Shown here: positions 12,336 to 63,347 of the stretch, piece by piece | Position numbering within the stretch: position 1 is the first letter of the stretch | How the letters are laid out: each line of letters begins with the position of its first letter | NCBI RefSeq assembly: GCF_042453785.1 | Contig: NC_091664.1 | Coordinates: 16,775,001 to 16,839,000 of the forward strand | Length of the DNA stretch: 64,000 nt | DNA from: Malus domestica | Taxonomy: Eukaryota > Streptophyta > Magnoliopsida > Rosales > Rosaceae | Direction of reading: 5' to 3' | Notes under the pieces: model-generated | Told to the model about the DNA's origin: nothing | Databases searched by the model: none | Seen by the model: the letters and a program-made list of their open reading frames with translations, nothing else | Translations under genes and position numbers: made by a program

Positions 12336-12496
12336 ACTTACACGCCCCGACCCCAGTAACAAAAGTTACGAGGCCATGATGTGCTTGCCAACACTAAATT
12401 GACCATATAACTCCATTGTAAGATGACATCGTAAGATATTTGTGATGTGTAAGAATTTGAACAAAAATGTTCATTTATAATAAATCCAAAGCTACT

Positions 12497-14222
12497 TGAT
12501 GCGAAATTTTTCTTTACACACAAATTAAACCCTCTTTTTGACAATTGTAGTATAGATGTAAGTAGGGTATCGTTCTAGGCCGGGGATTAGGAGGGATTGC
12601 TAATCTATTCTAAATTAATTTAAAAATATTAAATAAGACTCAAGGACACAAAATTAGGCTAAAAACTCTAATAACTCGAAACACACTTAAAATGACTCAA
12701 AATAATGAAAACAATTAAATTAAACACTAGGAACTGAAATGGACGGAAATTAAATTAAAAGACTAACAATAAAGAAAACTAAATAAATAATATAATTTAA
12801 TAATGGATGGGTGTTTGGTTTTGATGAAAAGTAAATTAAACTTAATTAAATTACAGAATTGACAAAAACATGAAATTAAGGTAAAATGATAAATGACGGA
12901 CTAGCTAGAGGGTTCTTCTCCACACATGTTATACTTGCATACAAAATGATTTCCAGTTGCTTTTCGATAAGCTATTAATTCTCAATGCCCCAAGTTAATT
13001 AGGTACGCTTAAATTAACCCTCAGTTTTTCCACAAGTTATTGGGTTGGATGATTGCATACGACAACCCAAAACATTCCCTACAAGTTCCCTACATGAGTT
13101 GCATAATAGAGATACAAGCAAGAATCAATAAGTTCTATGAAAAACATAAGCATTGACGAGACACTCGTTACTATGATTTGCATGAAACTTATGCCAAGAA
13201 TTTACTTAACGTGATTGTGACTAGCAACCTTCACTACTTATGAATATAAGTTCATAACGATTAGGTGAAATTCCCTTATATTCTAGCGTCAAATTCATGC
13301 ATGAAAATTAAGCGTGCACTCTCAACCAACATACACAAATCAGTTTTTATACGAACGGATAAGTAAATTGAATTCACAACTTATAAATCACAACTGGATG
13401 TAATCAATTCATATTACAAATATAAATCATGGCTTTGAATTAACCTCTAGCCAAAATAAAATTAGTTACACATTATTAAAACAGAAATAAAATAAAAGTT
13501 TAGAGAGAGTAAACCGAAAGAAGGTGATCTGCTGCATCTGCCTGTCTTCCTCTCGCTGACAATTCCCTGGACTGCGTCAGTTGCTGCCAAAGGGCAGCTC
13601 CTGTTCTTCCCCGCGTCACCACCTCCTCGTGGACTCTGTCCCTCTCTTCTCTACATACCTGATCCTCTCTTGACAGCACCTTATCTTCTTTTTTTCGCCC
13701 CGCAGCTTCACGCTGCCCAAAGGGCAGCGCCCTCTCTCGGTCCTCCCAGACCCCCAAATCCTTGCGTCTCTGCGAGCTGCCCAAAGGCAGCCCCCTTCTC
13801 TCGCTCCCGAGGCCCCCTTCTTTTACGCTGTCTCCTTCCACTTCTTCTTTATTCTATTATTTCCTTCCATTCTTCACATTCCCCGTGCTTTTCCTTTCCA
13901 GCTACCAATCCCTTTAACCTGTCTTTCTTTTCTTTATTTTATTCCCTTTTTCTCACTATCCTCTTTCTGCTGACTCGCTCCTTCTTCTCTATTATATTAT
14001 TTTCTTTCCTTTCTTCGCATCTCACTTCTTTCTCTCCCTGCACACATTTCCTTTTTCTGCTATTTTTTATTCTTTTTTTTTATTCTTTTCTTTATTCTTT
14101 CTACAAAACATAAATATGATGATGTTTCACAAAAATAACGTAAATAGCTTAAAAATATAAGGAACTAACTAAGAAAAGACAGTGAATTCGAAGTAAAAAT
14201 ATATATAAATATGATCCGATCA
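12497..14222 (-). repeat. 3' LTR of the LARD (1,726 bp)
   Basis: It matches 18334-20056 almost base for base. Differences I saw are T/C in CTTCACA(T/C)TCCCC near 13873, a few bases of T-run length near 14070-14095, and a clearly different block in the first about 24 bases (see findings). A C- and T-rich segment at 13500-14100 includes three short hairpin-forming motifs of the type GCTGCCCAAAGGGCAGC. Open frames in this segment (113 and 147 aa) are compositional. Confidence 0.85.
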
Positions 14223-14240
14223 AATACCCCCACACTTAAC
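14223..14240 (-). other. Polypurine tract of the LARD
   Basis: The minus strand reads GTTAAGTGTGGGGGTATT directly before the LTR start TGATCGG. This is the expected position and composition for the plus-strand primer. Further in (14246-14270) is the CTCGAGGACTAGC motif that commonly precedes this tract in Tat-type elements. Confidence 0.7.
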
Positions 14241-16080
14241 TTTTGCTAGTCCTCGAGCAAAACAAAGAAAACAAGAACAAGAAGTAACAAGAAAAACATT
14301 AGCTTCCCTCTATGTGACCCTCATAGAATTTCATTCAAGAAAACGAATCATCAAGAACCATAGCTAGCATCAAGGAACTAATCCAAGTTCATCTTCCTAA
14401 TTCAAATATTAGCAGTAATCTTTGAATCATCCTTGAAGTGTAGTGTGTGAGATAGCCATGCTAATGCAATTTCAAGTTTTTATTTTTAAAATCATCATAT
14501 GCAAACTAGCGACCTTCTCACGGGATATGCACTCAATCACACATGTGTTTAGTTTTAATGTGTTTCGCTCAAAGAATCAAATGTGAAAGTTCTACCATAA
14601 GCTTGCATAAAGATCACTTCTCCACAGTCATAATTGCAAAACTTAAATCAAGAGGACTTTTATTGGATGTAATGAGGTTTAGGGATAGGGTTATTGAAAC
14701 AAAAGAATAGGAAACACAAATTCCAAGCTACATTGCAAGCAATTTTTCTCTTTAGATTTATAAGAACTCAAGCTCTCCAACGATTCTTCAGAAACCTCCA
14801 ATCACACCCTTAAACTGAAACTTGAAAAACAATTTTTTTTTATTTTTTCTTCGTATACAATCTTTCTTTTTCTTTTTCTTTTCTCTTTTTTTATTTTTTT
14901 TATTTTTTATTTTATACAAACATGAAATACCCCCACACTTATTTTTTTGCCAAACACCTTCAAAGTACTTTACAAACATTTCTCATAAGACAATCTCACA
15001 TTGCTCACTAGCTTGCTTTGGAAAGGGTAAGGAAAAAAAATGTTTCAGGTATAAGGGTAGACATATCTGGAAATAAGAAATAAAAGGCTCAACATACACG
15101 GCTCAAATTGGCAATCTAATGATATCATTTTTCTTTGGGAAACATGGTTATTTGGGCCATGGTGGTAAACCTAATGTCTCTATCATTTCCAAGTTCATGC
15201 AATCAATGACAAACATTTCGAAAGATCGTTACGCAAGTTCTAGAGATGTATCTCACATAAGTTCATCACACATGAAAGAATAGGAGTGTATGAAAAATGC
15301 ACACACTTTCAATAGGCTCAAAAACTCACATAGGATGTATATGGTCACTAAATTCACATATGAAGCTTTAAGTCATACTTTAGTTTCACATTAACAAGGC
15401 TATGTGCATTTGGTTTTTCAAAGATGATCAAACATGTACAATACTAACAAGAGAATTAGGAATTTCACAAAACACATGTTAACTAAGTTCTTGATGATCA
15501 TGGTTCAAATTTGATCCAATTATATCATTGGGTCGGGAAACTAACAAAAATCTAATTCAGAACAATAAGGGGAACAAGACAATATTTTTGGATTTTTAAA
15601 TTTTCCGAATTTTTAAATTTTTATTTTTTATTTTTTTTATAGAGAAAACAAAACTAAAAAATAAAAAGCAACAACACAGAAACAAATGAAACCACTTCGA
15701 AGTTGAAGGTACAAAAAAAATTTCAATTTGGTCATTTTTACCCTTTACCCCCATACTTAAACTGGACATTGTCCCCAATGTCAGAAAACACTATAATGCA
15801 AATAAAAATAAAATGAATAAATAATAAGAAACAAAATAAAGCAATTGGACTGAAAACTTCCCTAATTTGCAGTAAAATCAAGTGATGACCCCCAAGCTAA
15901 AATTCTGCAATCAACTTCAAGGGTGGAAATAACCAAAAGTTCCTGCAAAGAAAAGAAATAATTCAGTTAAGTAACGCAAGAAAATGTAAAAAAAATTGCA
16001 AACGAAAAATTGAAAATCACGATAAAAGACAATGAAAAGAACTAATAAGTGATCATTGGTCGTGCTTGTTGACTTTCCAC
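14241..16080. other. LARD interior, noncoding, AT-rich with PPT-like repeats
   Basis: No protein domain is visible on either strand. The segment holds T/A homopolymer tracts (14829-14915 and 15590-15640) and two internal copies of a polypurine-tract-like motif (14928-14940 and 15746-15760, top strand CCCCCACACTT and CCCCCATACTTAA). Short frames at 14788-15076 and 15596-15778 are homopolymer artefacts. Confidence 0.6.
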
Positions 16081-17218
16081 AGCTTTCCTCTTGAACTGGG
16101 TGACACTTAGCTTTTTACTTGCAAGTGATGATTTGATGATATTGTACGGCGGAGCTTTGCTCTTTGGCGATGTTGTTGAAGTTTCTTGAGTTCTTCAACT
16201 CAGATTCCTTCTGCTCTCGAGTTGATTGTGCAGGCTCAATTCCTTATTTGTTCTCCAAGCAGATGTGGCAGCTTCTCTAGTTCTTCATCTCAGACTCCTT
16301 CCGTTGGGATGATTGTGCAAGCTGCATTCTTCTCTGCTTGTTTCTTCTGCACGTTGTCTCCACATGCTGCTGGTATCATTTTCGCTTGCCTTATCTGTTC
16401 TTCGGATAGATGTGGCAGCTTCTTTGGAGTACATCAGCAGTGGAAGACGAGTACTCGAGAGCAATTTCTCCATGTCCTGCAGGTTAGAACAAAGACAAGG
16501 AAAAGGACATGGAGAATGCATGATATGAGATACTCTTGCTTTCAACCTTTATGATATGAAATACTTTTGCTTTGAATGGGTTGTTCGCAGGAGTATCCCA
16601 AGGAATGAGGAACACAGAGTGACTCGAGAGGATTCTTTGGGAATGCATTTTCGGAGATGAAGAAGTGTTGAGAGGGTGTGCTGAGAGAGTGTGCTTTTGT
16701 TGTGGAAGGCGAAGGTAGAAACTTATAGGACTTGTCTTCACAACCGGAACTGTTCTCTCACTCATTGTCGGTAGCCGGTGGATGGATGAATAGTACAAAT
16801 TACGCGCTTTCTGACAAAGCTGCCCGTAATTTCCGCAAAGCTACCGGTTGCATGTGACGAGTGACGACACGTCTGGACAAAGTGATCTTTCGAAATCCGG
16901 GATTCGGCTCATGGTTGCTGAGCAAGCCCATTTTTTTGAGAAATGAAACGCCTCTTTTGAGAAAAGAATCCGGCTTTTAAGAAAGGAGCGTCCTCTTTTC
17001 AGAAAAGAATCCGGCTTTTGAGAAATGAGCCCCGACTCTTCGATTTGCGAGAGGACGCTTCATCGATTTCTGAGGAGCGCCTCTTTGATTTCTTCTTTTT
17101 ATAGAGGCGTTAATTTTGTTCCACAACACACTTGAGTACCCTCCTGTAAACACTCCCTTCTTGCACTTGTTTAATCTTGATCATTCCGACTCTCTTCTTT
17201 CTTTACCACCTCTGAAAA
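16080..17218 (+). promoter_or_regulatory. Upstream region of the antisense ORF, with repeated CCTCTT/GATTT boxes and TATA
   Basis: Between 16940 and 17110 there are several copies of a box around CGCCTCTT(C/T)GATTT or CCTCTTTTGAGAAA. They are followed by a TATA-like element (CTTTTTATAGAGG, 17094-17106) about 115 bp before the ATG at 17219. The same core promoter layout precedes the related ORF at 44409-45083. The more distal part (16186-16800) shares phrases with 47215-47560 in inverse orientation, such as GATATGAGATACTCTTGCTT and GAGTACTCGAGAGCAAT. The upstream region therefore travels with the ORF. Promoter activity is inferred from position and conservation. Confidence 0.5.
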
Positions 17219-17845
17219 ATGTCTGGCCCTTCTGATCGTCGTTTTGACTTGAACATTGGTGAAGAGGCAGCTCCGCCTTCACCAGACAACATATGGCGGC
17301 CATCCTTCATATCCCCTACCGGTCCCCTTACCGTGGGGGATTCGGTGATAAAAAATGATATGACAGCTGCGGTGGTGGCCCGAAACCTTGTCACTCCCAG
17401 AGATAACAGACTGCTCGCAAGGCGGTCTGATGAATTGGCGGTCAAGGAGTCTCTGGCTCTCAGTGTGCAGTGTGCGGGTTCCGTATCCAACATGGCCCAA
17501 CGCCTATATGCCCGAACCCGTCACGTTGAATCCTTGGTGGCTGAAATACAGAGTCTCAAGCAAGAGATTAAAGGGCTCAAGCATGAGAATAAGGAATTGC
17601 ACAAGCTCGCACACAGCTATGCCACCAGCATGAAGAGGAAGATTGACCAGATGCAGGACACCGATGGTCAAATTTTACTTGATCATCGGAGGTTTGTGGG
17701 TTTGTTCCAACAACATCTGCCTTCGTCTTCTGGAGCGGCACCGCGTAGTGAAGCTCCAACTGATCAACCTCTACCGCCTCCTCCTTCTGTAGCCCCGCCG
17801 ACTGCTGAAGCCCCGCCTACTACTGAAGCACCACCCGACCAATGA
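17219..17845 (+). CDS. Antisense element-borne ORF, leucine-zipper protein with EAR-like FDLN motif (unknown function)
   Basis: This 208-aa ORF runs opposite to the LARD that carries it. Residues 8-12 read RFDLN, close to the plant EAR repression motif (L/F)DLN(L/F)xP, though the final proline is absent. A conserved block about 15-100 includes PPSPDNIWRPSF and TGPLTVGDS. Residues about 100-150 form a leucine zipper with at least four leucines seven apart (LVAEIQS, LKQEIKG, LKHENKE, LHKLAHS). The tail is rich in proline, alanine and threonine (PPTTEAPP type). It is about 84 percent identical by eye, over the first ~166 residues, to 44409-45083, mostly with conservative changes. No transposase, gag or enzyme motif is visible. 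Tat-type elements are known to carry antisense extra ORFs, which fits. A nuclear regulator is a hypothesis only. Confidence 0.65.
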   Translation: MSGPSDRRFDLNIGEEAAPPSPDNIWRPSFISPTGPLTVGDSVIKNDMTAAVVARNLVTPRDNRLLARRSDELAVKESLALSVQCAGSVSNMAQRLYARTRHVESLVAEIQSLKQEIKGLKHENKELHKLAHSYATSMKRKIDQMQDTDGQILLDHRRFVGLFQQHLPSSSGAAPRSEAPTDQPLPPPPSVAPPTAEAPPTTEAPPDQ

Positions 17846-17878
17846 ATACTATTAGTTTACATCATTGTAAAATATTTG

Positions 17879-17881
17879 TAC

Positions 17882-17912
<31 letters not shown>

Positions 17913-17929
17913 TTTTTTTTTTTTTTTAA
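17879..17929. repeat. Poly-T tracts
   Basis: Two long T runs separated by a few A bases lie about 35 bp after the ORF stop. They are a simple low-complexity stretch, and their length may vary through sequencing or slippage. Confidence 0.85.
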
Positions 17930-18310
17930 TATATGTAAATTAATGTAAAGAGACTTTGGTTAATCCTCCCCCACACTTAAACTAAATAACACAAACTCAC
18001 AGAAATCAACCAAATAACACAACTAACTAAACAAAACAAAATGAAAACAGTAAAGATAAGGGTGGAAGAATGCAAAGCTGATTGGGTTAGTGATTCCAAA
18101 GTCTCCATTCGTTGAATGCTTGGGTTGCCTCCCAAGAAGCGCTTGATTTAACGTCTTTAGCCGGACGCATCTTTCCTTTAAATTTCCCTCGGCTCCATTT
18201 GAACCTAAAATCAAAGAAAGAAAAATAAATCAAATATCAAAAGTAAAATACACAAACACCAATATAAACATAAACAAAAACAAAAATAAAAGGATTAGCA
18301 AAGTTGCTAA

Positions 18311-18328
18311 TCCCCGGCAACGGCGCCA
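18311..18328 (-). other. Primer-binding site of the LARD
   Basis: The minus strand reads TGGCGCCGTTGCCGGGGA, five bases inside the right LTR. This is the well-known primer site of plant Tat/Athila-type Ty3/gypsy elements. It fixes the element orientation and shows that 18334-20056 is the 5' LTR. Confidence 0.85.
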
Positions 18329-18333
18329 AAATT

Positions 18334-20056
18334 TGATGCAAAATATATAAGCACACAAATTAAACCCTCTTTTTGACAATTGTAGTATAGATGTAAGTAG
18401 GGTATCGTTCTAGGCCGGGGATTAGGAGGGATTGCTAATCTATTCTAAATTAATTTAAAAATATTAAATAAGACTCAAGGACACAAAATTAGGCTAAAAA
18501 CTCTAATAACTCGAAACACACTTAAAATGACTCAAAATAATGAAAACAATTAAATTAAACACTAGGAACTGAAATGGACGGAAATTAAATTAAAAGACTA
18601 ACAATAAAGAAAACTAAATAAATAATATAATTTAATAATGGATGGGTGTTTGGTTTTGATGAAAAGTAAATTAAACTTAATTAAATTACAGAATTGACAA
18701 AAACATGAAATTAAGGTAAAATGATAAATGACGGACTAGCTAGAGGGTTCTTCTCCACACATGTTATACTTGCATACAAAATGATTTCCAGTTGCTTTTC
18801 GATAAGCTATTAATTCTCAATGCCCCAAGTTAATTAGGTACGCTTAAATTAACCCTCAGTTTTTCCACAAGTTATTGGGTTGGATGATTGCATACGACAA
18901 CCCAAAACATTCCCTACAAGTTCCCTACATGAGTTGCATAATAGAGATACAAGCAAGAATCAATAAGTTCTATGAAAAACATAAGCATTGACGAGACACT
19001 CGTTACTATGATTTGCATGAAACTTATGCCAAGAATTTACTTAACGTGATTGTGACTAGCAACCTTCACTACTTATGAATATAAGTTCATAACGATTAGG
19101 TGAAATTCCCTTATATTCTAGCGTCAAATTCATGCATGAAAATTAAGCGTGCACTCTCAACCAACATACACAAATCAGTTTTTATACGAACGGATAAGTA
19201 AATTGAATTCACAACTTATAAATCACAACTGGATGTAATCAATTCATATTACAAATATAAATCATGGCTTTGAATTAACCTCTAGCCAAAATAAAATTAG
19301 TTACACATTATTAAAACAGAAATAAAATAAAAGTTTAGAGAGAGTAAACCGAAAGAAGGTGATCTGCTGCATCTGCCTGTCTTCCTCTCGCTGACAATTC
19401 CCTGGACTGCGTCAGTTGCTGCCAAAGGGCAGCTCCTGTTCTTCCCCGCGTCACCACCTCCTCGTGGACTCTGTCCCTCTCTTCTCTACATACCTGATCC
19501 TCTCTTGACAGCACCTTATCTTCTTTTTTTCGCCCCGCAGCTTCACGCTGCCCAAAGGGCAGCGCCCTCTCTCGGTCCTCCCAGACCCCCAAATCCTTGC
19601 GTCTCTGCGAGCTGCCCAAAGGCAGCCCCCTTCTCTCGCTCCCGAGGCCCCCTTCTTTTACGCTGTCTCCTTCCACTTCTTCTTTATTCTATTATTTCCT
19701 TCCATTCTTCACACTCCCCGTGCTTTTCCTTTCCAGCTACCAATCCCTTTAACCTGTCTTTCTTTTCTTTATTTTATTCCCTTTTTCTCACTATCCTCTT
19801 TCTGCTGACTCGCTCCTTCTTCTCTATTATATTATTTTCTTTCCTTTCTTCGCATCTCACTTCTTTCTCTCCCTGCACACATTTCCTTTTTCTGCTATTT
19901 TTTTATTCTTTTTTTTTTCTTTTCTTTATTCTTTCTACAAAACATAAATATGATGATGTTTCACAAAAATAACGTAAATAGCTTAAAAATATAAGGAACT
20001 AACTAAGAAAAGACAGTGAATTCGAAGTAAAAATATATATAAATATGATCCGATCA
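18334..20056 (-). repeat. 5' LTR of the LARD (1,723 bp)
   Basis: Read on the minus strand it starts TGATCGGATC and ends TTTTGCATCA. It repeats the left LTR closely, including the three hairpin motifs at 19418-19433, 19547-19563 and 19611-19626. The near identity indicates a fairly recent insertion compared with the decayed sequence around it. Confidence 0.85.
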
Positions 20057-20775
20057 CTACTACATAGTTCACTTATCAACCTCCCCACTTAGGGACACAA
20101 AATATCTTGGGATTAAATCCCGTTATTATCACATCACATTAAAGTAGCTAGAAGTTTCACACAACAGTAATTAAACACATAAAAGTGCAGTGTTGGGCAT
20201 TATCAAAAGTGTGATCATGCAATTATTACAATCAAGATAAAACTACAGTAAATGAACTATCGCCCTAAATCCAAAGGATGAAAACCTCACAGCCAAGCCC
20301 ACTTGTCATCACCGGTGTTCTTCTTATTCTCGTTACGTCCTAAAGATGTCGACAGAACAAAATGTGAGTGGACCAGTTTTATCACTTCAAAATCATTCAA
20401 ACATAATAACCCCTATTTTGAAAACATAGATAGTGAAAACTACATACATAGTAATACAAGAGTAATAGTAGTCTAGATCAACTCAATCTTGCACGTCATA
20501 TCAAAGAAAGTAAATCAATCACAAATAAGTAATGTATAGCAAGCAAGTGAAGTGGCATCTACCTAATCAATATCTAGCGTCTACTAGCGAGTTCTAGCAT
20601 CTCTAGAATATAATGTACCTGTAATAAATCCTGCAGTCATAGCTAGCTATACGATATGTATGATAACCATGTGGTGAAAGTAAATCACAAATGATCTCAA
20701 GATGTCATCTAATATTAATTTAAGTATAAGTGTAGTCAAAGACTAACATAAGTAATATGCATCCGCATATAAAAG

Positions 20776-26530: not shown

Positions 26531-26947
26531 TACCAAATATCATTTTTTTCCTTTCAAAAATTCATAAATTCCCTCCATATCCCAAACCTTCTCCCTCGCC
26601 TTACTTCTCCTTACTCCTCTAGGGTTTGCGATGTTTCCCTCAATCTGAATCCGAACTTGCAATTTTGCTTCTGATTCGTGTTCCGGAGTCTTCGATTCGC
26701 TGCAAGACTCCGTGAATTGCGTTTCTTTCACTTCAATTTTGACTATCTCTCGCTGCTCTGCGGTCTGAATTTTTCTAGGGTTTCTGAGTGTGAGCTCGAT
26801 TTTACTTTCCCCCTTTATATGTTTCTGTTTGACTCTCGAGAAAAGGAGGGAAAAGGAGGGAAAATTCGTGGGTTCTTGCGGGAATGCGCTCACGGGTCGA
26901 TTAATATGAGAGTTGAAGAAAAAGCTGAGTGATATGAGGGTTTGAAT

Positions 26948-28138
26948 ATGAGCCATGGAGATGCGGGCAGTAGCAGCAGAGTGAATCAACCAAGTAGCGA
27001 TGCGCCGAGGAGAACAGGATGTGGAGGAGGAGCTGATGAGTTTGGCCGGGCCTTGTCGACAGTTGCGGTGGCGCAGATATGCGAGAGCGTTGGGTTTCAG
27101 AGCTTCAAGGAGTCTGCTTTGGATGCCCTTGCCGACATTGCCATCAGACACCTCCGTGACCTAGGGAAGATGTCGAGTTTTTACGCCAACATGGCAGGTA
27201 GAACCGAATCCAATGTGTTTGATATTATTAGGGCGTTGGAGGATTTGGAGTCGTCGCAAGGGTTTTTGGGTGCTGCCGAGGTGGGACATTGTCTTGCAGA
27301 GTCCGGGATTGTAAGAGGCATTGTTGAGTATGTGGGTTCGGCTGAAGAGATCCCGTTTGCACAGCCATTGCCTTGGTTTCCTGTGATCAAACAACGGAAA
27401 TTGATCCCAAATTTCGAGCAGATTGGGGAGGCTCCGCCAAGTAAGCATTTGCCCAATTGGTTGCCGGCTTTCCCTGATCCACATACTTACATCCAAACAC
27501 CAACGTGGAATGAGAGGAAGACCGATCCTCGAGAAGATAAGATCGAGCTGGCTAGGCAGAGGAGGAAGGCTGAGAGGTCTCTGTTGAGTCTGCAGCAGAG
27601 GTTATTGTGCAATGGTGAGGCTTCTGGTTCAGGAGAAGCCTTTGCAGCAGTGGCATTGAGGGGCAGCAGCGGTGGCGGTAATGATGGAAAGGGATTGTTA
27701 TTATTACAGGGGAACGAGAGTGATCAAAGTAATCCATTCCTTGAACCGCCAATCCAGCCGGGGGAGAAAGATGTATCAGTATCCCAAGTAGTTTTGCCAT
27801 CCAGGTTTTCAGACGAAGTGGCAAAAGGGAACAATGCGGGTTCTTCCCTTTTGGATGCGTTTGCGCCTGCCATTGAAGCTGTGAAAAGTGGGGCGTGGAT
27901 GGATGGAGACGATGAGAGGAGACAGCTTCTTCCCGAAACCAGGCCGTCAGTGAATTTCAAGTTCAGAAGCGGGAAGAAGTTTTTGGGGCAACCGTCGGAT
28001 CTGAGCCAGCAACAGAAGGGTGCCGGAAGACAGGCATATTGGTTCGGGCGAGACGAGGAGAGGGATGACAAGAAGAGGAGAGCAGAGTTTATTCTTAGAC
28101 AGTCGATGGAAAACCCACAGGAACTCACTCAGTTGTAG
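26948..28138 (+). CDS. TAF8: Transcription initiation factor TFIID subunit 8
   Basis: A single-exon gene of 396 aa from the ATG at 26948 (MSHGDAGSSS). The frame is open two codons further upstream (TTG AAT), but these do not supply an ATG. Residues about 30-110 form a histone fold of the Bromo_TP type (EFGRALSTVAVAQICESVGF, ALDALADIAIRHLRDLG). Residues about 165-215 hold the TAF8 C-terminal signature (KHLPNWLPAFPDPHTYIQTP, then TWNERKTDPREDK). The rest is low complexity, with a basic end (DDKKRRAEFILRQSM). TAF8 pairs with TAF10 through the histone fold and joins the TFIID lobes in the nucleus to start RNA polymerase II transcription. Intact, ending in TAG at 28136-28138. Intronless TAF8 genes are common in plants. 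Sequence at 26540-26940 is likely 5' UTR and promoter. Confidence 0.9.
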   Translation: MSHGDAGSSSRVNQPSSDAPRRTGCGGGADEFGRALSTVAVAQICESVGFQSFKESALDALADIAIRHLRDLGKMSSFYANMAGRTESNVFDIIRALEDLESSQGFLGAAEVGHCLAESGIVRGIVEYVGSAEEIPFAQPLPWFPVIKQRKLIPNFEQIGEAPPSKHLPNWLPAFPDPHTYIQTPTWNERKTDPREDKIELARQRRKAERSLLSLQQRLLCNGEASGSGEAFAAVALRGSSGGGNDGKGLLLLQGNESDQSNPFLEPPIQPGEKDVSVSQVVLPSRFSDEVAKGNNAGSSLLDAFAPAIEAVKSGAWMDGDDERRQLLPETRPSVNFKFRSGKKFLGQPSDLSQQQKGAGRQAYWFGRDEERDDKKRRAEFILRQSMENPQELTQL

Positions 28139-30863: not shown

Positions 30864-33800
30864 ATGGTTCAACTTCATGCAACTTTCTCTTTCAGAAACT
30901 CTCCCAAATTCTCAGGTTCTTCTCCCAAACGTCCCCGTTTCTCTCCCACATCCTCAGGCCTCTCTCCGAAACGTCACCGTTTCGGTGTCAAATATCTCAG
31001 AGCAAATCTCCTTGGCACTAATTTAACATTTAATTGCAAGGTAAGTTATTCTAACACTCTAATCCACCAGCTAAATTTCGCTTCTTTTTTTCTTTTATGT
31101 GATTATTTTTCAATTTTTTCCATTTTTTCAATTGGGGTTTTTGTGTTTAGGCCAATGGAGGAGAATTGGATCCCCTGCCTCACTTGCAGACTCTCGGAAC
31201 ATTTCCAAGGGAGGAGCTTGCTGCAAAAGTTGTCCTGGTCAGATTTGACTCTGCCCTTTTGCTTCATGAACATGTGGAACAACACAGATTCCAATCCGAT
31301 GCGGTATTAACGATTAAGTATTTATGCCAATCCGGGGCTAGAGTAGTTCTTGCTAGTGATTGGAGTGTTAAAACTAATCCTAAACTGTGTGTTGCACAGT
31401 CTGTTGCAGGTATAAAATGCTTCTTGGTAATGTTAGTTTTAGTTTATAACTGTAATTTAGACGATTATGATGTTCTATGATAGCGAACGTTGTGTTGTTT
31501 GAGCTGTGTGACAATTCAGCATTTTGATAGTTTGTTTATTGCTTGTTGGTTTCCATAAATCAGATTTCTTGTCATCTCTTGTTGACTACAAAGTTGCTCC
31601 GGTGCAATGTATTTCTAACCTGGCATCAAAGGTGGAAGGTTTTGAGAAAGGAGATATTGTTCTTCTTGAGAATCTTTCTGAGTTTAGAGGGGAAGTTGCC
31701 AATTGTTCAAAATTTGCTCAAGTATTGTCATCAGGAGTTGATATTTTTGTTAATGACTACTTTTCCCGGTCTCATAAGATGCTTGCATCCACCTGTGGAG
31801 TTGCTCGCTTCTGCTATGGCAACTTAGCTGGTTTTCACTTTGAGAAGAGCCTATCTCAACTTAGAAGGGCTGCAGAAACCGACACAAAACCTTATGTAGC
31901 AATTGTATGCCCTTGCTGCTATTATATTTTTATTTGGCTCCACTTAAAATTTGACTTATGAACTCTAACTTTGTTATCTTTGGATATGCAGATTGGTGGG
32001 GGTAATCTCTCTGATAAAGCAGCTGCTTTGCACTCCTTAGCTTCAATATGCGATGGGTTAGTCTTTGTTGGAATGATGTCATTTCAAATAATTCACGCCT
32101 TAGGGATATCTGTTCCCTTGAATTTCTTGGAACATGGGGCACTTAAGGAAGCTTTAGATATAGTCCAGGTTGCACACGATAGAAATGTACAGATACTATA
32201 TCCAAAAGACTTTTGGTGCAAGAATGATTCTCTTCCGAAGCAATTGGAAATATTTCCTGCTCATGGTATTCCAGATGGTGAGACTGCATTTGATTGACCA
32301 AAAATATGATGCCTTTTGACTCCCTTCCTTTCCACGAATGATTAGAACATGTAGCCATGTATGAATTGACTTCTTCTTTTGACTGCTTTTGCTGATCACA
32401 ATATCATTGAAACTGCGCAATCTAAGTCTCATGTGATAGTAACTTGTGAAATTGGGTTTTAATCCAAGTTATTTTCCCCTATTTTAGGATGGGTACCTAT
32501 TGATATTGGGCCTGTATCGTTGGTTGAAATAAACTCCATGCTTACAAAGTGCAAGGTAAATCAAAAGACTTTCAAAGTACTATTATAAGGAAGAGGAAGT
32601 GTTTTTTGGTTTCGAAATGCCAATTTAATTAAGTTTTGAGGTGACAGTATCAATTTGTTAACTATTTCTCTTTGTATTTAGACAATGCTTCGTTTTATTG
32701 ATAGATTTCAGTGTGCATAAGAGTTTGCTCAGGTACTTTATCTAAGCATGACATCTAGCAAGCTTAATATAGCCCTGGAGACGGTTTTTTCACTTTCAAC
32801 TCCGGTGTTGGGCTCCATATTCATTATTCTGTTCTTTTGCACCCTTATGGTTGTTTACTTTTCAGCATTGAAAACTGAAAATTTTAAATTTTATTGCAAA
32901 AGTTTCAAAGTTAAATTCCATCTTGATGTCATCTCTATTTTCTTTCTTGACGGAATTATGTTCTCTTTTGTGTTAAGTGTTCAAGCACTCATTGTTTCTG
33001 GCCTTGTCATGGACTCATTATCAGGCATCCCTCATTTGAATTGCAGAAAGTCACTTGGATTGGTCCAGTAAAATTCTGTATGAGTAACTGCACAAAAGGA
33101 GCTTCTATACTGGCCCAAATGCTTAATCAACTAAGTCAAAGCAACTGCAGCGTAACTGTTGTTGGGAGTATGGCATGCGAAGCAATGGTGAAGGAATCAA
33201 ATTCTGTCTCTCATTTGACCATGATTGAGAATGCTTCAGTTGTATGGGAGTTTCTCAAGGGAAGAAAACTTCCGGGGGTCATGGCCTTAGATAGGGTATG
33301 TTTCATGCTCTTCTTTCATAAAAATTCACCACTTTAACCAGAAGCTTGAAAAAAATTGATTCAGAATTATCGAATGAGACAAAACTAAATGTCTTGTATT
33401 GTAACCCATCATGGTTGGAAAGACCATCTAGTATCTGGTGGCCACGTCAATATTGGTATATATTTTGCATGTGTGTTAATCAGAAAATGAACCCCTTCTT
33501 GTAATGACTGTCCCGAACCACTGTAATATATGAAAGTACATGAGCTGCAATTCTTTGGGAATCTAGCCTCATATCTCATGATGGTGGTAGTAGTTCCTAC
33601 CACAAGGGCCATTAACTCAAAACACTTTGTTTAAATTTATTTATGGGTAAAATGTGAATTGATGCATCAACCTGACTTCACTCTCAGTGATGTAGAACTG
33701 CGGTAGTATTAGGGTGAACAAGGGTGTGACGGGACCGAGAAGAAGTAAAAGATCAAGGAGACGAATTAGGGGTCGAGGAGACGAAGGGAAAGGGGAAGAA

Positions 33801-36800
33801 ATCAGGGAGTTCTAGTAAGGAGAGTTTTTCATTCATCAAAAATTAAATTAAAAGATTACAATCTGCTCTATTTATAGAGACAAACTTTGAAAAATTAGGA
33901 AAGCAATTTAACTAATAAGAAATCCTTTAACAACGGGGAATTCTTAACTAAAATAGGAAAACTAATAAAAGGAAAGCTAATCCAAGTAGAATTAGGAGAT
34001 GCATTCTGCATCATTCTCCCCTACTGAAAAGAACTCGACACAGGCGAGTAAGCCAATATTAAGGACAACGACGACGTTTGTAAGTATGGATGATAGGAGG
34101 ACGGGATGCTGCCAAATCAAGATCCTGAAGAGCATCCTGATAATGGTGCAAAAGACTGGAATCCAACTCGCGAAATTCAGCTTCTGTAATCCAAGTATCC
34201 TCAGTAGCAGGCTTTCCCACCCAACGAACCAGATAACGGGTCGATCCTCCAGTAGACGAAGTCACAACTTCATGATCCAAAACGTCAGCAATCTGCTCTG
34301 TAGGGGCAGAAATAGTGGACGGAAGTCGTGGTGCCATAGGAGGAATGGAACTCTGAGCAACATCCATCGACAGAGGTGGAGAAAAGGTTCCCCGATAAGG
34401 AGATAAGTCAGAGACATTAAAAATGGGACTGATCTGCATCGTGGCAGGTAACTCAATCAAGTAAGCATTGGACCCAAGCTTCCTAAGGACACGATAAGGA
34501 CCCATCGAACGAGCATGAAGCTTTTTAAAAGATTGCTTAGGAAAACGCTCAGGACAGATCCGCACCATAACAAAATCCCCGTGCTGAAACTCCTGGTGAC
34601 GACGATGAGCATTGGCGGCCAGTTGATAACTGTCGGTGTGCATGGCTATTTGCCGACGGACGTCATCATGCAGTTGTCTAATATGTTCAGCAAACGACGT
34701 AGCAGAGTCGGAGGCGCGGGCAGCCATAGGAAGAGCAACTAGATCCACAGGTGATCGGGGAGAAAACCCGTGAACAACCTCAAAAGGACTTTTACCGGTG
34801 CTTCGATTAACTGAGTTGTTATAAGCAAACTCAGCCACAGGCAACAAGAGATCCCAATTACCAGGCTTATCCCCAACTAAACAGCGAAGTAAATTTCCAA
34901 GACTGCGATTAACCACCTCCGTTTGTCCATCCGTTTGGGGATGGAAAGCGGAGGAAAACTTCAAAGTAGTCCCGAAAAGCTTCCACAAAGTTTTCCAAAA
35001 ATAACTAACAAATTTGACATCACGATCAGAAACAATAGAGACAGGGAGGCCATGCAAACGAACTACTTCCTGAAAAAATAATTTGGCCACATGAGAAGCA
35101 TCGGTATTTTTGGCACAAGGTAGAAAATGCGCCATTTTAGAAAAGCGATCAACTACGACAAAGATGAGTCATGGCCGCGACTAGTCTTAGGTAAACCAAG
35201 CACAAAATCCATACTAATATCCTTCCAAGGAGCATGAGGGATTGGTAGAGGGGTATACAGACCTGTGTTACGTTTGCGAGCTTTAGCTAGCTGGCATGTG
35301 CGGCATTGGGAGAGGAGCCGAGCAACATCACGTTTTAACGACGGCCAATAGAAACGGTCTTCCATCAAGGCAATGGTTTTATCTTTACCAAAATGTCCAG
35401 CCAAACCACCACCATGTAGTTCCCAAATAAGGAATTCACGAAGAGAAGTACGAGGAATGCATAATTGGGTTTTCCGAAACAAGAACCCATCCCTTGTAAT
35501 AAAGTCCACATACTCACGACGGTTACCGTTGGAAACTTCATGGAAAATAATTCCAAAATCTGGACACGACGAATACTCGGCCTTAATACGATCAAACCCA
35601 GTGACCTCAACTGTCATTGTGTGCAAAATAGTAGCCACGCGACTAAGGGCATCAGCTGCCTTATTGTCAATGCCTGGACGGTGTCGTAAAACAAACGTAA
35701 AGATCTGTAGATATTCAGACCACTTGACATGTCGACTGCTGATGGTGCGTTGAGAGTGGAGATATTTCAAAGCTTGATGATCGGAATATAGCACAAATTC
35801 GTTTGGCAATAGGTAATATTGCCAATACCGAAGGGCCTGTACCACAGCATAAAACTCCTTGTCATAAGTAGAATAACGTTGCTTTGCTGCATTAAGTTTC
35901 TCACTAAAGTAGGCTACTGGATGTCCTTCTTGGCTAAGCACGCCACCAATTCCGACTCCGGAAGCGTCGCATGCCACTTCAAAGACTTTAGTCAAATCAG
36001 GATGTCGAAGAACAGGTGCTTGACTCATCTTTTGCTTCAAAATTGTAAAGGCCGTGGCAGCTGCAGGGGTCCAAAGAAACGCTCCTTGTTTCATGCAATC
36101 AGTTATTGGTGCCATAATAGTACTGAACCCGGGAATGAATCGGCGATAAAAAGAGGCGAGACCATGAAAGCTGCGTGCCTCTGTTAATGTCGTAGGTGTT
36201 GGCCAACGAGTAATAGCCTCCACTTTAGTGGGATCGGTGCTAACCCCAGCTGCAGAAATATTGAACCCCAAAAATAGAACTTGCGGTTGAAGAAACGAAC
36301 ATTTGGGTAAGTTAGCATACAGTTTTTCCGCTCGTAATGTAAAGAAGAGCGAGTGAAGATGTTTGAGATGTTCTTCTCGAGAGTGGCTGTATACAAGGAT
36401 GTCATCAAAATAAACCACCAGAAATTTGCCAATATAGGGCCGTAACACATGAGTCATCACCCTCATAAACGTGCTAGGTGCATTGGACATGCCAAAGGGC
36501 ATAACAAGCCACTCATATAAACCATCAGGGGTTTTAAACGCGGTTTTCCACTCATCTCCTTCACGAATTCGGATTTGATGGTAACCACTGCGAAGATCTA
36601 TCTTAGAAAACCATTGGGAACCAGCCAAATCATCCAACATATCCTCAAGTCGCGGTATTGGGAAACGATACTTAACTGTAATTTTATTTATGGCGCGACT
36701 ATCCACACACATTCGCCAGGAGCCATCTTTTTTTGGTGTAAGGAGAACTGGAACAGCACAAGGACTTAAACTATGACGAATAAAACCCTTAGCCAGCAAC

Positions 36801-39800
36801 CCCTGGATTTGTCGATTTAATTCCGCTCGCTCAGGTGGGTTCATACGATAATGGGGAAGGTTAGGAAGTTGTGAACCAGGAACAAGGTCGATGGCATGCT
36901 GAATCTCTCGTGCTGGAGGTAGTTCATCTGGTAAGTCCTCAGGTATAACATCACAGAATTCCGTGAGTAGCTGCCGTATGGGTTCGGCAAATGGAGTGGG
37001 GGTACATTTAGAGACCGGTTTAAGCAAGAGAGCAAAGACCACACCCGTGTCTTGTAGTTCATGTGTAAAATCTACAGGTGATAAGATACTTAAACGATGC
37101 TCCGAAGCCTTCCCGTTTAAGGGCAGTGTCGGTTGAACCTCCTTAATTGGTTTGATGGCTGGGTTGGAAGGCTTGAGTGTTATGTTTTTCCCTTCATGTT
37201 GGAAAGTATAGGTGTTCTCTCGGCCGCAACTTTTGACGTTACGGTCATAAAGCCAAGGCCGGCCTAGTAGCACATGTGCAACACTCATAGGTAGGATATC
37301 ACAATAAAGTTTCTCGTGACAGGGACCCAATTGAAGAGGAACAAGACATCTTTCAGTAACAGGTAACCTAGTTTTATCTACCCAGCCGACTTGAAAAGGA
37401 TGGGGATGTGGTTCGGCCTGAAGATGAAGACGATCGACGGCAGCTTTAGAAATAACATTCAGCGTACTTCCCCCATCAATAACTAGCTGGCATCGAGTGG
37501 TACCGCAAGGGACATAAGTCTGGAAGATACTTGTGCGTTTCCATGAATCAGGAGGTGGAGGTGTAGATGCTGAATAAATACAACGCATAACACTCAGTTG
37601 TTGCAATGCTTCTTCCTCACAACAATTATCAAGGTCGGGATCATAAATAGGTTCAAGGGGCTCCACATACTCGTCCACACGAGGGTCCTCAATGTTGGAG
37701 CTAATATTTAAAGTTCTGTGGGGGCAACGGGAGGCGATGTGGCCCTTAGCATGGCAACGATAGCATTCGAGGTGAGTAGCCGTGGATAGGGCTGGTCCCT
37801 TCTCTGTGGCAGGTACCGTGGGAGCAGGTGGACCAGTGATGCCATATTTGGAGCTTGGATTACTGCGGTTTGGAGCAGAAGTGGAAGGATACCCGGGAGT
37901 CCCGGTGTACCTACGTTGTGGCCGCAAAAAGGTTTCAGCTTCCAATGCATGGCAATATGCATCTTCCAAAGTATACGGACGGAACCGACGGACTTCACGC
38001 TTGATATCGTCCCGAAGACCATGAATAAAACGAGACATGGTGATGTCGGGTTCTTCACGAAGCCCCGCACGTATTTTGTGTTCAATAAAACGAGCGTGGA
38101 ATTCTGTAACGGTAAAACTTCCTTGTGAAAGGGTCCATAACTGATCATACAATTGATGGCGATAAAATGTAGGAAGATATTGTTCGCGAAGCTTGAATTT
38201 CATCTCGTCCCAAAGAGTCACAGGCTGTTGTCCCAGTTGGTATAGTTGCTCCTCCACAGAATTCCAATATTGTCTAGCGGCTCCCTGTAATGTCATCTTA
38301 CCAATGCGTAGTTTATAAGCATCCGTCAAATCATACCAAGCAAAATAATCTTCCAGGGCTTGGATCCAATCAAGAAACATCGTAGGATCCCCACGACCAT
38401 CAAAAGTAGGAGCGATAGGTTTGATGTGGCGGATGATCTCGTTGTCAAACTGGCGAGGGGGAGGAGGGTACTGATCATGTGGAGCGGGTGGGAGGTTTAG
38501 AGCCTGAGGAGTCACTGGAGGAGGACCTATTGTGTGTTGAGTATAATGGAGTGGCAGCATAGACCCAGTGGAGCTAAGCGGCATTCCGTAGGACACTGCC
38601 TTTAATTTAGGATCCACCGGTGGAGTGGGCAAAAGGCCACTTGGTGGTGGCGTAGACGAGCTTGGGATCACTGTGGAGGAAGACGAAGTTGCAGCGTGTT
38701 CAACCCGAAAGTGGTTGATAAGTAACTGAACGGAGTTTTGAAGTTTAGTGATGGCAAGGTCCGTCGTTGAACGATGGGCGTGAGCCTGTACCAACTCTTC
38801 TTTGAGGTCAGTGCTGAGTTTAGAGAGTTGGGTTTCTATGCCCGCGATATCGTCCGTGACTTTGTTTTGGAACGTATGACATTGCTCTGCAAGGTTGGCC
38901 ACGGTTTGGGGTGCCATGGCAGGGATCAAACGCCAACGAAAGGGATTGTAGGCTCTGATACCAAATTGATGTAGAACTGCGGTAGTATTAGGGTGAACAA
39001 GGGTGTGACGGGACCGAGAAGAAGTAAAAGATCAAGGAGACGAATTAGGGGTCGAGGAGACGAAGGGAAAGGGGAAGAAATCAGGGAGTTCTAGTAAGGA
39101 GAGTTTTTCATTCATCAAAAATTAAATTAAAAGATTACAATCTGCTCTATTTATAGAGACAAACTTTGAAAAATTAGGAAAGCAATTTAACTAATAAGAA
39201 ATCCTTTAACAACGGGGAATTCTTAACTAAAATAGGAAAACTAATAAAAGGAAAGCTAATCCAAGTAGAATTAGGAGATGCATTCTGCATCACTCAGCTA
39301 AGGGATCTTTCGGATCAATTCACTTCCGAAACATACAATTGTCCAGCATTGCATACGGTGCTAATTTTTTTTTTTCAAAATTCTGAAAGTGGTATTTTGC
39401 AGGCATACCCTTTTGATATTGACTGGATTGCTGCCTATTCTGATCCAGCTCAACCTTTGGTAGTTGATATTGGAAGTGGTATAGTATTTGAGCTTCTTCT
39501 CTGCTCCTATGGGGTTTTCCCCCCTCCACTTTTAGGTTGCAGTTTGTTACATTGTTAGTTGTTCTTGGTCTCTGTGTTAGAAAGCTAAATCAGAGAAACA
39601 TGATGATTAAGTTCTCACAAGAAGCTAAATTTGATACAAATGATAAACTTATGATTGGGATAAACAAATATTCATTTAAATGTTTCTATAATATTGGGAA
39701 AAAAAACTTTATGATTTGATTATGAGATAGTTATAGAAGTTACTGGTTATTTTCTAACTCCAAATAATAAATGACAGGTAATGGAATGTTCCTTTTCGGG

Positions 39801-42547: not shown

Positions 42548-44148
42548 TCGCGGTTAAAGACAGATGGAGAGGTTATTTTCATAATCTTTTCAATGAAGGA
42601 CATGAAAGGAGTGCTTCTTTAGAGGAGTTGAGTAACTCAGAAGAGTGTAGAAACTACTCTTTTTATCGTCGAATCCGGAAGGAAGAAGTGGTTGTAGCTT
42701 TGAAGAAGATGAAGCATAGAAAAGCAATAGGCCCAGACGATATACCAATCGAAGTGTGGAAAGTTTTGGGAGAGACAGGTATAACATGGCTCACTGACCT
42801 TTTCAATAGGATTTTGAAAACGAAGAAGATGCCAAATGAGTGGCGAACGAGCACTTTGGTGCCTATCTACAAGAATAAGGGCGACGTACAAAATTGCATG
42901 AACTATAGGGGTATTAAGTTAATGAGTCATACAATGAAGCTTTGGGAGAGAGTCATTGAGCATAGATTGAGGCAAGAGACACGGGTTTCGGACAACCAAT
43001 TCGGGTTCATGCCAGGGCGCTCAACCATGGAGGCAATCTATCTCTTACGAAGATTGATGGAAAGATATAGAGATGGGAAAAAGGATTTACACATGGTCTT
43101 TATAGATTTGGAAAAAGCGTATGATAGGGTCCCAAGAGACATTCTTTGGAGGATCTTAGAGAAGAAAGGAGTACGAGTAGCATATATCCAAGCTATAAAG
43201 GATATGTATGAAGGAGCAAAGACTGCCGTAAGAACTCATGAAGGACAAACCGAAAGCTTTCCCATAACTGTAGGATTACATCAAGGCTCATCCTTAAGTC
43301 CTTACCTTTTTGCGTTGGTAATGGATGAGTTAACAGGACATATTCAAGATGATATTCCTTGGTGTATGCTTTTCGCAGACGATATAGTGTTGATAGATGA
43401 AACTCAGGAAGGGGTAAATGCAAAGCTTAACCTTTGGAGAGAAGTGTTGGAATCTAAAGGTCTTCGCCTAAGCCGATCAAAGACAGAATATATGGAGTGC
43501 AAGTTCAGTGCAGATGGAGGCCAAAACGAGTTAGGGGTGAGGATCGGAGATCAAGAAATACCAAAGAGCGACCGTTTTCGTTACCTAGGATCTATCTTGC
43601 AAAAGAACGGAGAATTAGATGGAGATCTCAACCATAGAATACAAGCTGGATGGATGAAGTGGAAGAGTGCATCTGGCGTGTTGTGTGACCGCCGTATGCC
43701 ACTGAAGCTCAAGGGAAAATTTTATAGGACGGCAATAAGGCCGGCGATGCTGTATGGCACAGAATGTTGGGCGGTGAAGCATCAACACGTACACAAAATG
43801 GGTGTAGCGGAGATGAGGATGCTTCGTTGGATGTGTGGGCACACGAGAAAGGATAAGATTAGGAATGAGGATATCCGGGGTAAAGTAGGAGTAGCCGAAA
43901 TTGAAGGAAAGATGAGAGAAAATCGGTTACGGTGGTTTGGACATGTGCAAAGAAGGCCTACTGACGCTCCGATTAGAAGATGCGACTATGGGACAGAGGT
44001 TCAGGGCCGAAGGGGTAGAGGAAGACCTAGGAAAACTTTGGAAGAGACTCTAAGAAAAGACTTAGAGTACTTGGATCTAACGAAGGACATGACACAGGAC
44101 CGAGCACAATGGCGTTCTAAGATTCATATAGCCGATCCCACTCAGTGA
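42548..44148 (+). CDS. RTE-type reverse transcriptase, 5'-truncated (endonuclease domain missing)
   Basis: The frame is open from the truncation point; the first internal Met is at 42628 (506 aa to the stop). It carries the RT fingers and palm: [79 protein letters not shown]. The catalytic motif is [10 protein letters not shown], with FADD rather than the YADD of L1 elements. The C-terminal part ([40 protein letters not shown]) is the usual end of this plant LINE family. The apurinic endonuclease domain expected at the N-terminus is absent because of 5' truncation, so it cannot act alone. No stop interrupts the RT region. Confidence 0.85.
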
Positions 44149-44408
44149 CTTGGATTTTTCAAGTCTCCAACCGAGAAGTTTTCCTCACTCGAAAAATTAA
44201 GGGAACACTACCCCAACCTACATGCTCCACTTAGAAAGCTTCAACATACAAGCTTCAACAAAAGAAAATTCAAAGAACTTAGCGAAGAAGGCTTTGGTGT
44301 ATTTAACACAATACGTTGAAATGAAGGAAAACTTATTTATTGATATCCCCGATAAGCTACAAATATGTACATATACATGAGTCAAAATAAACAAACAAGA
44401 TGGAGCCT

Positions 44409-45083
44409 TCACAAAGGTTGCTTAGGAGAAGTCTCAGCAGTCGGTAGAGCCCCAGAAAGAGAAGGCATCGGAGGGGGATCATTCGGAGCCTCAGTACTGG
44501 ACAGAACCCTAGAAGGAGGAGGCATCAGAGGTTGATCATTTGAAGCTTCATTACGCGGTACAGCCCCAGAAGACGAAGGCAATAAATGCCTTTGGAACAA
44601 ACCCACAAATCTCTGATGATCAAATAAAACCTGACCATCAGTTTCCTTCATCTGGTCAAGCTTCCTCTTCATGTTTGTAGCATAGTCATGTGCGAGCCGG
44701 TGCAACTGTTTATTCTCATGCTTGAGCCCTCTAATCTCCTGTTTGAGACTCATCACTTCGGCCGCCAATGATTCAACTTGGCGGGTTCGAGCAAATAGGC
44801 GTTGGGCCATATTAGACACAGAACCTGCACACTGAACACTGAGAGCCAGTGAATCCTTAACAGCTAACTCATCAGACCGTTTGGAAAGTAGTCTGTTATC
44901 TTTGGGAGTGAGAAGGTTCCTGGCCACCACCGCAGCGGTCATATCATTCTTCATCACGGAATCCCCAACGGTAAGAGGACCAGTAGGGGAGACGAAGGAT
45001 GGGCGCCATATGTTGTCTGGAGAAGGCGGGGCTGCCTCTTCAACAAGGTTCAAGTCAAAACGACGGTCGGAGGGGCCAGCCAT
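44409..45083 (-). CDS. Second copy of the antisense ORF family, leucine-zipper protein with FDLNL motif (unknown function)
   Basis: 224 aa, starting MAGPSDRRFDLNL. Residues 9-13, FDLNL, match the core of the plant EAR repression motif (L/F)DLN(L/F)xP, except that proline is not at the last position. The conserved block (PPSPDNIWRPSF, TGPLTVGDSV, AAVVARNL, SVQCAGSVSNMAQRL) and the zipper (LAAEVMS, LKQEIRG, LKHENKQ, LHRLAHD) are kept. The tail is longer than in the 17219-17845 copy, with repeated SS(T)EAPNDPPP-type units. The frame is intact. Differences from the other copy in the first 166 residues are about 27, mostly conservative (I/L/V, K/R, D/E), which suggests past selection on the protein. 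No enzymatic motif is seen. Confidence 0.65.
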   Translation of the reverse strand: MAGPSDRRFDLNLVEEAAPPSPDNIWRPSFVSPTGPLTVGDSVMKNDMTAAVVARNLLTPKDNRLLSKRSDELAVKDSLALSVQCAGSVSNMAQRLFARTRQVESLAAEVMSLKQEIRGLKHENKQLHRLAHDYATNMKRKLDQMKETDGQVLFDHQRFVGLFQRHLLPSSSGAVPRNEASNDQPLMPPPSRVLSSTEAPNDPPPMPSLSGALPTAETSPKQPL

Positions 45084-48346: not shown

Positions 48347-48927
48347 AGCGACCGTTTTCGCTACCTAGGATCTATCTTACAAGAGAACGGAGAATTAGAT
48401 GGAGATCTCAACCATAGAATACGAGCTGGATGGATGAAGTGTAAGAGTGCATCCAGCATGTTGTGTGACCGTCGTAGGCCACTGAAGCTCAAGGGAAAAT
48501 TTTATAAGACGGCAATAAGGCCAGCGATGTTGTATGGCACAGAATGTCGGGCGGTGAAACATCAACACGTACACAAAATGGGTGTAGCAGAGATGAGGAT
48601 GCTTCGTGGAATGTGTGGGCACACGAGAAAGGATAAGATTGAGAATGAGGATATCCGAGGTAAAGTAGGAGTAGCCGAAATTGAAGGAAAGATGAGAGAA
48701 AATCGGTTCCGGTGATTTGGACATGTGCAAAGAAGGCCGACTGACGCTCCGGTTCGAAGATGTGACTACGGGACAGAGGTTCAGGGCCGAAGGGGTAGAG
48801 GAAGACCTAGGAAAACTTTGGAAGAGACTCTAAGAAAAGGCTTAGAGTACTTGGATCTAACGGAGGACATGACACAAAACCGAGCGCAATGGCGTTCTAG
48901 GATTCATATAGCCGACCCCACTTAGTG
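48347..48927 (+). pseudogene. Second RTE LINE 3' end (C-terminal coding part with a stop)
   Basis: Homology to the LINE begins abruptly at AAGCGACCG and follows 43566-44147. A TGA at 48713-48715 replaces the Trp codon of RLRWFGHV, and the frame resumes to a TAG at 48923-48925. It is followed by the intact LINE terminus (GTGGGAAAAGGCTTTG) that the first copy lacks. Clearly non-functional on its own. Confidence 0.85.
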
Positions 48928-51194: not shown

Positions 51195-51248
51195 ATCTCC
51201 CCTCCTTATAGAATTTCGTCCCCGAAATTCCCATAACCAAATCATAAT

Positions 51249-56103: not shown

Positions 56104-56146
56104 AAGATCGTTAAGACATTAACAAATTTACAGGACTGCAACCTAA

Positions 56147-56158
56147 GCTCTGATACCA
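56147..56158 (-). other. Primer-binding site, unit 1
   Basis: The minus strand reads TGGTATCAGAGC, three bases inside the middle LTR, complementary to initiator methionine tRNA. The second unit has the same site at 63333-63344. Confidence 0.9.
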
Positions 56159-56161
56159 AAC

Positions 56162-58380: not shown

Positions 58381-58434
58381 ATCTCCCCTCCTTATAGAAT
58401 TTCGTCCCCGAAATTCCCATAACCAAATCATAAT

Positions 58435-63289: not shown

Positions 63290-63347
63290 AAGATCGTTAA
63301 GACATTAACAAATTTACAGGACTGCAACCTAAGCTCTGATACCAAAC

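Follow-up and report, generated by a model that had tools for sequence, protein, structure and literature searches.

Antisense additional ORFs (aORF-3R, eORF-3'R) are carried by several plant LTR retrotransposons of the Ty3/gypsy group, among them Retand, Grande (gene23), RIRE2 and PvRetro13. Antisense TRP28 (PF04195) ORFs are reported from 97% of recently active Retand clusters and are presented as a hallmark of Retand (PMC11963269). The antisense product of Grande is described as nuclear, and the region of gene23 as transcribed from its own promoter, while an SMC-like domain is reported for the antisense ORF of PvRetro13 (PMC7264820). Both accounts treat the function of the antisense ORFs of plant LTR elements as an open question (PMC7264820, PMC11963269). 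HBZ of HTLV-1 is likewise an antisense-encoded leucine-zipper protein of an LTR retroelement, and is described as lowering HTLV-1 expression at the 5' LTR (PMC10186651). Apple has a high-copy LTR-type repeat, HODOR (9,716 bp, KX869746), for which the published descriptions give no BLAST trace in strawberry, rose and black raspberry assemblies (PMC13334179, PMC6901071).

In this paper we analyse a stretch of 64,000 nucleotides from Malus domestica, referred to throughout as the window, which holds two related ORFs:

17219-17845, plus strand: ORF1, 208 aa, antisense in element 1, with an N-terminal RFDLN and a proline-rich tail
44409-45083, minus strand: ORF2, 224 aa, the second family member

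Both sets of coordinates and both lengths had been given exactly in a preliminary description of the window. ORF1 and ORF2 are actual protein-coding genes, which are selected now or were until recently. Our reading as a whole, to which we give an even chance, is that they belong to a family of antisense accessory genes which mobile elements of apple and pear carry, comparable in kind to the plant Ty3/gypsy aORFs, and encode a coiled-coil regulator. This is a known phenomenon with two unusual traits, namely a carrier that lacks gag-pol and the presence of the gene with its upstream region in two contexts. No description of this apple ORF was recognised in the open-access literature searched.

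ORF1 lies inside a complete element of 7,560 bp with the following parts:

12497-20056, minus strand: element 1, a complete non-autonomous LTR retrotransposon, LARD-like, with LTRs, PBS, PPT and TSD
18334-20056, minus strand: 5' LTR of element 1
12497-14222, minus strand: 3' LTR of element 1
12492-12496 and 20057-20061: 5-bp TSD, CTACT
18312-18328, minus strand: PBS TGGCGCCGTTGCCGGGG, complementary to tRNA-Asp
14227-14238, minus strand: polypurine tract TAAGTGTGGGGG, adjoining the 3' LTR

Because the PBS and the PPT are on the minus strand, element 1 reads from right to left and ORF1 is antisense to it. With the TG..CA ends of the LTRs and the CTACT duplications, this bears out what had been proposed for ORF1, which like the aORFs of Retand, Grande, RIRE2 and PvRetro13 is antisense to its element, multi-copy and, between the two copies compared, conserved. 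The PBS pattern has a single match in the window, against a mean of 0.00 in shuffles, and was assigned using what we take to be the sequence of tRNA-Asp. The LTR pair is 99.77% identical across 1,707 aligned columns. Over their full length the LTRs differ in 14 alignment columns, which are clustered, with 8 in the first 20 bases (12497-12516 / 18334-18351) and 6 elsewhere.

No open gag-pol is present in element 1. Stop-free stretches of the internal region in the sense of the element reach 118 codons at most, there is no open RT frame, and comparison with the gag-pol and LINE proteins encoded in the window gave no similarity at E 0.01. Large retrotransposon derivatives (LARDs) have LTRs, a PBS, a PPT, a TSD and a long internal region without open gag-pol, and element 1 has all of these; what sets it apart from LARDs is an intact antisense gene belonging to a family under selection. 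Without gag-pol, it would need an autonomous partner for movement. By description, element 1 and HODOR are both LTR-type repeats of apple, of 7,560 and 9,716 bp. The 3' end of ORF1 is about 490 bp from the 5' LTR, that is, on the PBS side of the element.

Two further observations concern element 1 itself. Polypurine copies resembling TAAGTGTGGGGG lie at 14227, 14930, 15748 and 17968 on the minus strand, one of them with a mismatch; all four are within element 1, where 0.23 would be expected in the window, and the ORF1 module sits between two of them. Near the U5 end of each LTR, a 20-nt stretch (12545-12564 and 18380-18399, plus strand) matches the 5' half of tRNA-Asp at 18 of 20 positions, with the search pattern built from the shared bases. 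It lies antisense to the RNA of the element, whose PBS corresponds to the 3' end of that tRNA. Second primer-tRNA contacts are known from Ty1 and HIV, and the stretch could be a contact of this kind.

The two ORFs had been estimated to be about 84% identical over their first 166 residues, and the count is 139 of 166 (83.7%), with 27 amino-acid differences over codons 1-166; BLASTP gives 161/200 identical. Nucleotide differences in the 166 codons number 16, 12 and 49 at codon positions 1, 2 and 3, so that third positions hold 49 of the 77 (p = 7e-8). For codons 1-166, dN/dS was 0.084/0.585 (NG86), 0.096/0.460 (YN00) and 0.086/0.522 (LWL85), a ratio of 0.14-0.21 by the three methods, and for this pair not the value near 1 which the preliminary description had named as a sign of passive hitch-hiking. 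Taken by part (NG86), the ratio is 0.11 for codons 1-47, 0.07 for codons 48-90 and 0.22 for codons 91-166; the proline-rich tail is looser (0.235/0.542, dN/dS 0.43, NG86), and all 208 aligned codons together give 0.110/0.574 (NG86). When the same substitutions were placed at random in codons 1-166, 2000 neutral simulations gave a mean of 51.2 amino-acid changes and a minimum of 40, compared with the 27 observed, and 1744 of the 2000 runs gained a stop. There is purifying selection between ORF1 and ORF2 which, coming from one pair, cannot be placed on a branch.

These counts bear on whether the functional product is a protein at all. Antisense RNA could instead supply double-stranded RNA that feeds or blocks silencing, and a role of antisense RNA is raised as a possibility for retroelements (PMC7264820). 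A role of RNA only, however, predicts neither the concentration of differences at third positions (49/77) nor amino-acid changes at about half the neutral number. The codon pattern is strongly against RNA as the sole product, and we regard this explanation as very improbable.

The family is large. Of 2904 candidates, 2053 protein clusters are related to ORF1 at E of 1e-3 or lower, and where the organism is named among the 120 of these clusters that were listed, it is always Malus (119/120, the remaining one being P0022). The best matches among those listed have 96-99% identity to ORF1 and come from Malus baccata and Malus domestica. Many apple proteins called hypothetical are therefore probably this element gene. 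A length-shifted search gave 64 matches, 62 of them named Malus or Pyrus, and a second, with a divergent pear query (E up to 0.01), gave 60, of which 58 were so named; the remainder in both were P0149 and P0156, and since a match requires common 5-residue words and only part of the length range was covered, relatives outside apple and pear are possible. Unlike the aORFs of plant Ty3/gypsy elements, this family has, among the matches listed, named relatives only in apple and pear. P0022, P0149 and P0156 are on sequences of 1.2-1.4 kb, which would suit transcripts. All 195 proteins retrieved contain the ORF core in part or whole. A viral or phage origin was rejected, as the two pattern matches in viral contigs were not confirmed as relatives and phages gave none.

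The pear models include a divergent class of seven (P0161, P0163, P0165, P0166, P0170, P0171 and P0185), onto which a common second protein region is chained. The RFDLN start is absent from the four of these that were read (P0161, P0163, P0166 and P0171). Five of the seven are labelled S ribonuclease, which looks like an annotation artefact.

Another explanation is that ORF1 is a passenger, captured from another element or from a now unrecognised host gene and merely carried, with the signal of selection coming from functional source copies elsewhere. The absence of open gag-pol from element 1 agrees with this, as does the position of the gene at the PBS end, a place where gag-pol could have given way to a passenger, and a pairwise dN/dS cannot assign the selection to a branch. 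Some apple and pear gene models (P0164, P0173, P0174, P0179 and P0195) join part of the ORF to host protein domains and are counted on the same side; we have taken them for insertions in or near genes, or for mis-joined models. Against a passenger stands the largest of the listed clusters, P0027, with 964 members, a full-length protein of 208 aa that shares 94% identity with ORF1. The chimeric models aside, neither length-shifted search found a related host gene family. We consider the passenger explanation possible, and on balance unlikely.

ORF2 is found in a different setting, a block flanked by LINE sequence:

44148-48341, no strand assigned: block 2, holding ORF2, between two LINE 3' pieces
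43562-44147 and 48342-48927: the flanking LINE 3' pieces, direct repeats, 93.7% identical

The two mobile contexts claimed for the pair are thus confirmed. ORF2 had also been suggested to be antisense to its host block, and this we do not accept: within block 2 we found no LTR pair, no PBS of the tRNA-Asp type (the sole type searched there), and nothing resembling the gag-pol or LINE proteins that the window encodes. What element 1 and block 2 have in common is the ORF and its upstream side. The aligned pieces are 17011-17788 with 45284-44511, 16465-16672 with 47322-47114, and 16354-16465 with 47517-47406, besides weaker ones; the last piece ends at 17808, 37 bases short of the end of ORF1. 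Downstream of the stop codon nothing meaningful aligns between the two regions (best E 0.05). Similarity stops at the 3' end of the ORF, and the shared unit is therefore the upstream region plus the ORF. The upstream features are:

16354-17218, plus strand: ORF1 upstream region, piecewise related to 47517-45084; a weak further piece starts at 16072
45084-47517, minus strand: ORF2 upstream region, piecewise related to that of ORF1
16521-16542 and 16552-16573, plus strand: two copies of the 22-nt motif TGATATGRGATACTYTTGCTYT upstream of ORF1
47214-47235, 47245-47266, 47558-47579 and 47715-47736, minus strand: four copies of the 22-nt motif upstream of ORF2

Pieces related to the ORF2 upstream region, which is enlarged by direct repeats, lie within the 0.9 kb upstream of ORF1, and directly 5' of the ATG 148 of 201 ungapped columns are identical. 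That part of the upstream region has also been kept is a further point against a passenger. A TATA-like block, CTTTTTATAG(A/G)GGC, is present in both copies roughly 110 nt before the ATG; its direction is ambiguous, because the opposite strand reads CTATAAAAAG, which is the better TATA box. The six copies of the 22-nt motif in the window compare with 0.02 expected (3 mismatches or fewer), an optimistic expectation because the pattern was derived from these copies. The TATA-like block and the 22-nt repeats are candidate regulatory sites.

In the window proteins, which according to the preliminary description have no enzyme motifs, no Pfam family reached its curated cut-off. RFDLN, described there as near the N-terminus, occupies residues 8-12 in both ORF1 and ORF2, and the four-heptad leucine zipper is confirmed, running from L106 (L106, L113, L120, L127). 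Weak Pfam matches of the window proteins are for the most part to coiled-coil families. The zipper pattern, at four heptads, is present in 177 of the 195 retrieved proteins. AlphaFold2, with an alignment of 45 sequences (the two from the window and 43 chosen from those retrieved), predicts one main helix at residues 60-164 with disordered ends; 75 residues of the helix have pLDDT of at least 90, and with a mean pLDDT of 70 and a pTM of 0.34 for the whole model the helix is the one part to be trusted, although a single long helix would fit any coiled coil. Most of residues 1-47 is predicted as disordered. The results support a coiled-coil protein family that is carried by mobile elements, is conserved and evolves under purifying selection. 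In a search for a solved relative, 11 distinct PDB sequences matched with E no higher than 1, none of them convincingly; the best match (0.024) is a response regulator, and others, among them TPR, geminin and NRBF2, align to the coiled-coil portion.

A zipper of this kind invites comparison with bZIP proteins, whose signature is N-x7-R/K-x9-L. ORF1 has N91-x7-R99 and lacks the leucine at the right distance, the full pattern occurs anywhere in 15 of 195 proteins, and PF00170 scores 13 bits against a cut-off of 27.6. Membership of the bZIP class is rejected, as the basic region is out of register. In the comparison with HBZ, ORF1 likewise differs in having no basic region in register, and the comparison concerns only how the proteins may work.

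The long helix predicted here, which is charged and followed by a disordered tail rich in proline, might belong to a structural or RNP factor, a coiled-coil protein of particle assembly, RNA binding or nuclear import that takes no part in transcription; the sequence itself does not require a role in transcription. Its antisense placement would, however, mean that a structural protein is made from a separate transcript, and the products of some antisense ORFs are described as nuclear (PMC7264820). We think this explanation improbable.

The N-terminal motif had been called EAR-like, which holds in the loose sense and fails in the strict one. N-termini were placed by pattern in 161 of the 195 proteins, of which at least 5 are false placements, leaving 34 not placed. 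The loose form [FL]DLN is kept in 151 of the 161, and the strict EAR motifs DLNxxP, DLNxP and LxLxL occur in none of them; LxLxL occurs anywhere in the protein in 15 of 195. Strict EAR membership, on DLNxxP or LxLxL, is accordingly rejected. In the treatment consulted, loose [FL]DLN counts as a repressor motif under broad definitions only (PMC6479872). Mean majority shares in the alignment of 45 rows are 0.96 for the four FDLN columns, against 0.90 for residues 1-25, 0.95 for residues 26-47, 0.88-0.91 for the rest up to residue 166 and 0.75 for the tail. FDLN therefore stands out only slightly, above residues 1-25 and level with residues 26-47.

These figures decide how much can be made of a special case of our reading, in which the product is a TOPLESS-recruiting repressor: the FDLN peptide would bind the corepressor and the zipper would bring it to element or host promoters. 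The retention of [FL]DLN in a region mostly predicted to be disordered, the dN/dS of 0.11 over codons 1-47 and the slightly better conservation of the FDLN columns than of residues 1-25 overall are consistent with it. Set against this, the strict motifs are absent from all placed N-termini, LxLxL occurs at any position in 15 of 195 proteins, no basic region stands in register beside the zipper, and DLN is common, being reported from 2112 non-transposon rice proteins (PMC6479872). With only the loose motif kept, TOPLESS recruitment stays a hypothesis, one that we judge quite improbable, and EAR-TOPLESS is the least supported step of the mechanism considered below.

The relation of the family to known antisense ORFs comes from gene models. 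In 10 of the 195, the model joins the ORF to a stretch resembling the antisense TRP28 ORF, which is always downstream; two of the ten supplied the queries, and the models are automatic, from a length class that favours fusions. All ten were scanned for PF04195, which was found in two, P0160 (19.7 bits) and P0168 (24.3 bits), both below the cut-off of 26.2, and gave no match in the other eight. Automatic models may join wrongly, yet sequences so joined are still neighbours on one strand, and in this way the chained models tie the ORF to accessory ORFs already known in antisense position from plant Ty3 elements. TRP28 membership of the window proteins was rejected, PF04195 being listed for neither ORF1 nor ORF2 at E up to 10 with filters that drop most weak matches. 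The TRP28 ORF of Retand is a different protein and, as far as sequence goes, a neighbour of this family and not a homologue. Unlike the aORFs of plant Ty3/gypsy elements, then, ORF1 has no TRP28 match, and it sits at the PBS end of an element lacking an open pol.

We count in favour of an antisense accessory gene the purifying selection, the antisense architecture, the related upstream regions with the 22-nt motif, the predicted helix and the TRP28-chained models. Counted against it are the position of ORF1 on the PBS side of a pol-less element and not between pol and the 3' LTR, the lack of a TRP28 match in the protein itself, and a TATA-like block that is better in the opposite direction; the selection, moreover, rests on one pair, the tail is looser, and the TRP28 link comes from automatic gene models. 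If ORF1 is an accessory gene, it would be transcribed from its own upstream region, against the genomic RNA of the element, and its product would dimerise through the zipper. The product probably regulates the element; it may act in the nucleus and adjust in trans how strongly the element family is transcribed or silenced, as HBZ acts on HTLV-1. Retand-type elements are the probable origin of the gene, next to a TRP28 ORF in antisense position, and its later carrier would be an element without gag-pol, dependent on an autonomous partner.

A stronger version makes the locus a plant counterpart of HBZ, in which a portable cassette of upstream region and zipper gene has moved between apple-pear mobile contexts. 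The gag-pol-less element would keep it since its zipper protein, acting through the FDLN peptide and the 22-nt motif, would repress, or else redirect, host silencing or the transcription of the element family. We hold this version to be quite improbable. Compact and intact, ORF1 represents a family under selection within an element that lacks gag-pol; if it is the accessory gene that an element of this sort retains, that gene ought to count in the spread of the element, and the small size of the gene would make it easy to express and test.

The remainder of the window holds other elements and a host gene. From 48976 to 64000 a Ty3 element unit of 7,186 bp is repeated head to tail, with 100% identity over 7,839 bp and, at the junctions near 56158 and 63344, a PBS that is presumably of the tRNA-Met type; this is either a very recent LTR-sharing tandem element or an assembly artefact. 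A host gene for the TFIID subunit TAF8 (Pfam TAF8_C, Bromo_TP) is at 26942-28138 on the plus strand. On the minus strand, a further Ty3 element at 33688-39295 has gag-pol in two frames, a chromodomain, and terminal repeats of about 329 bp that are 99.7% identical.
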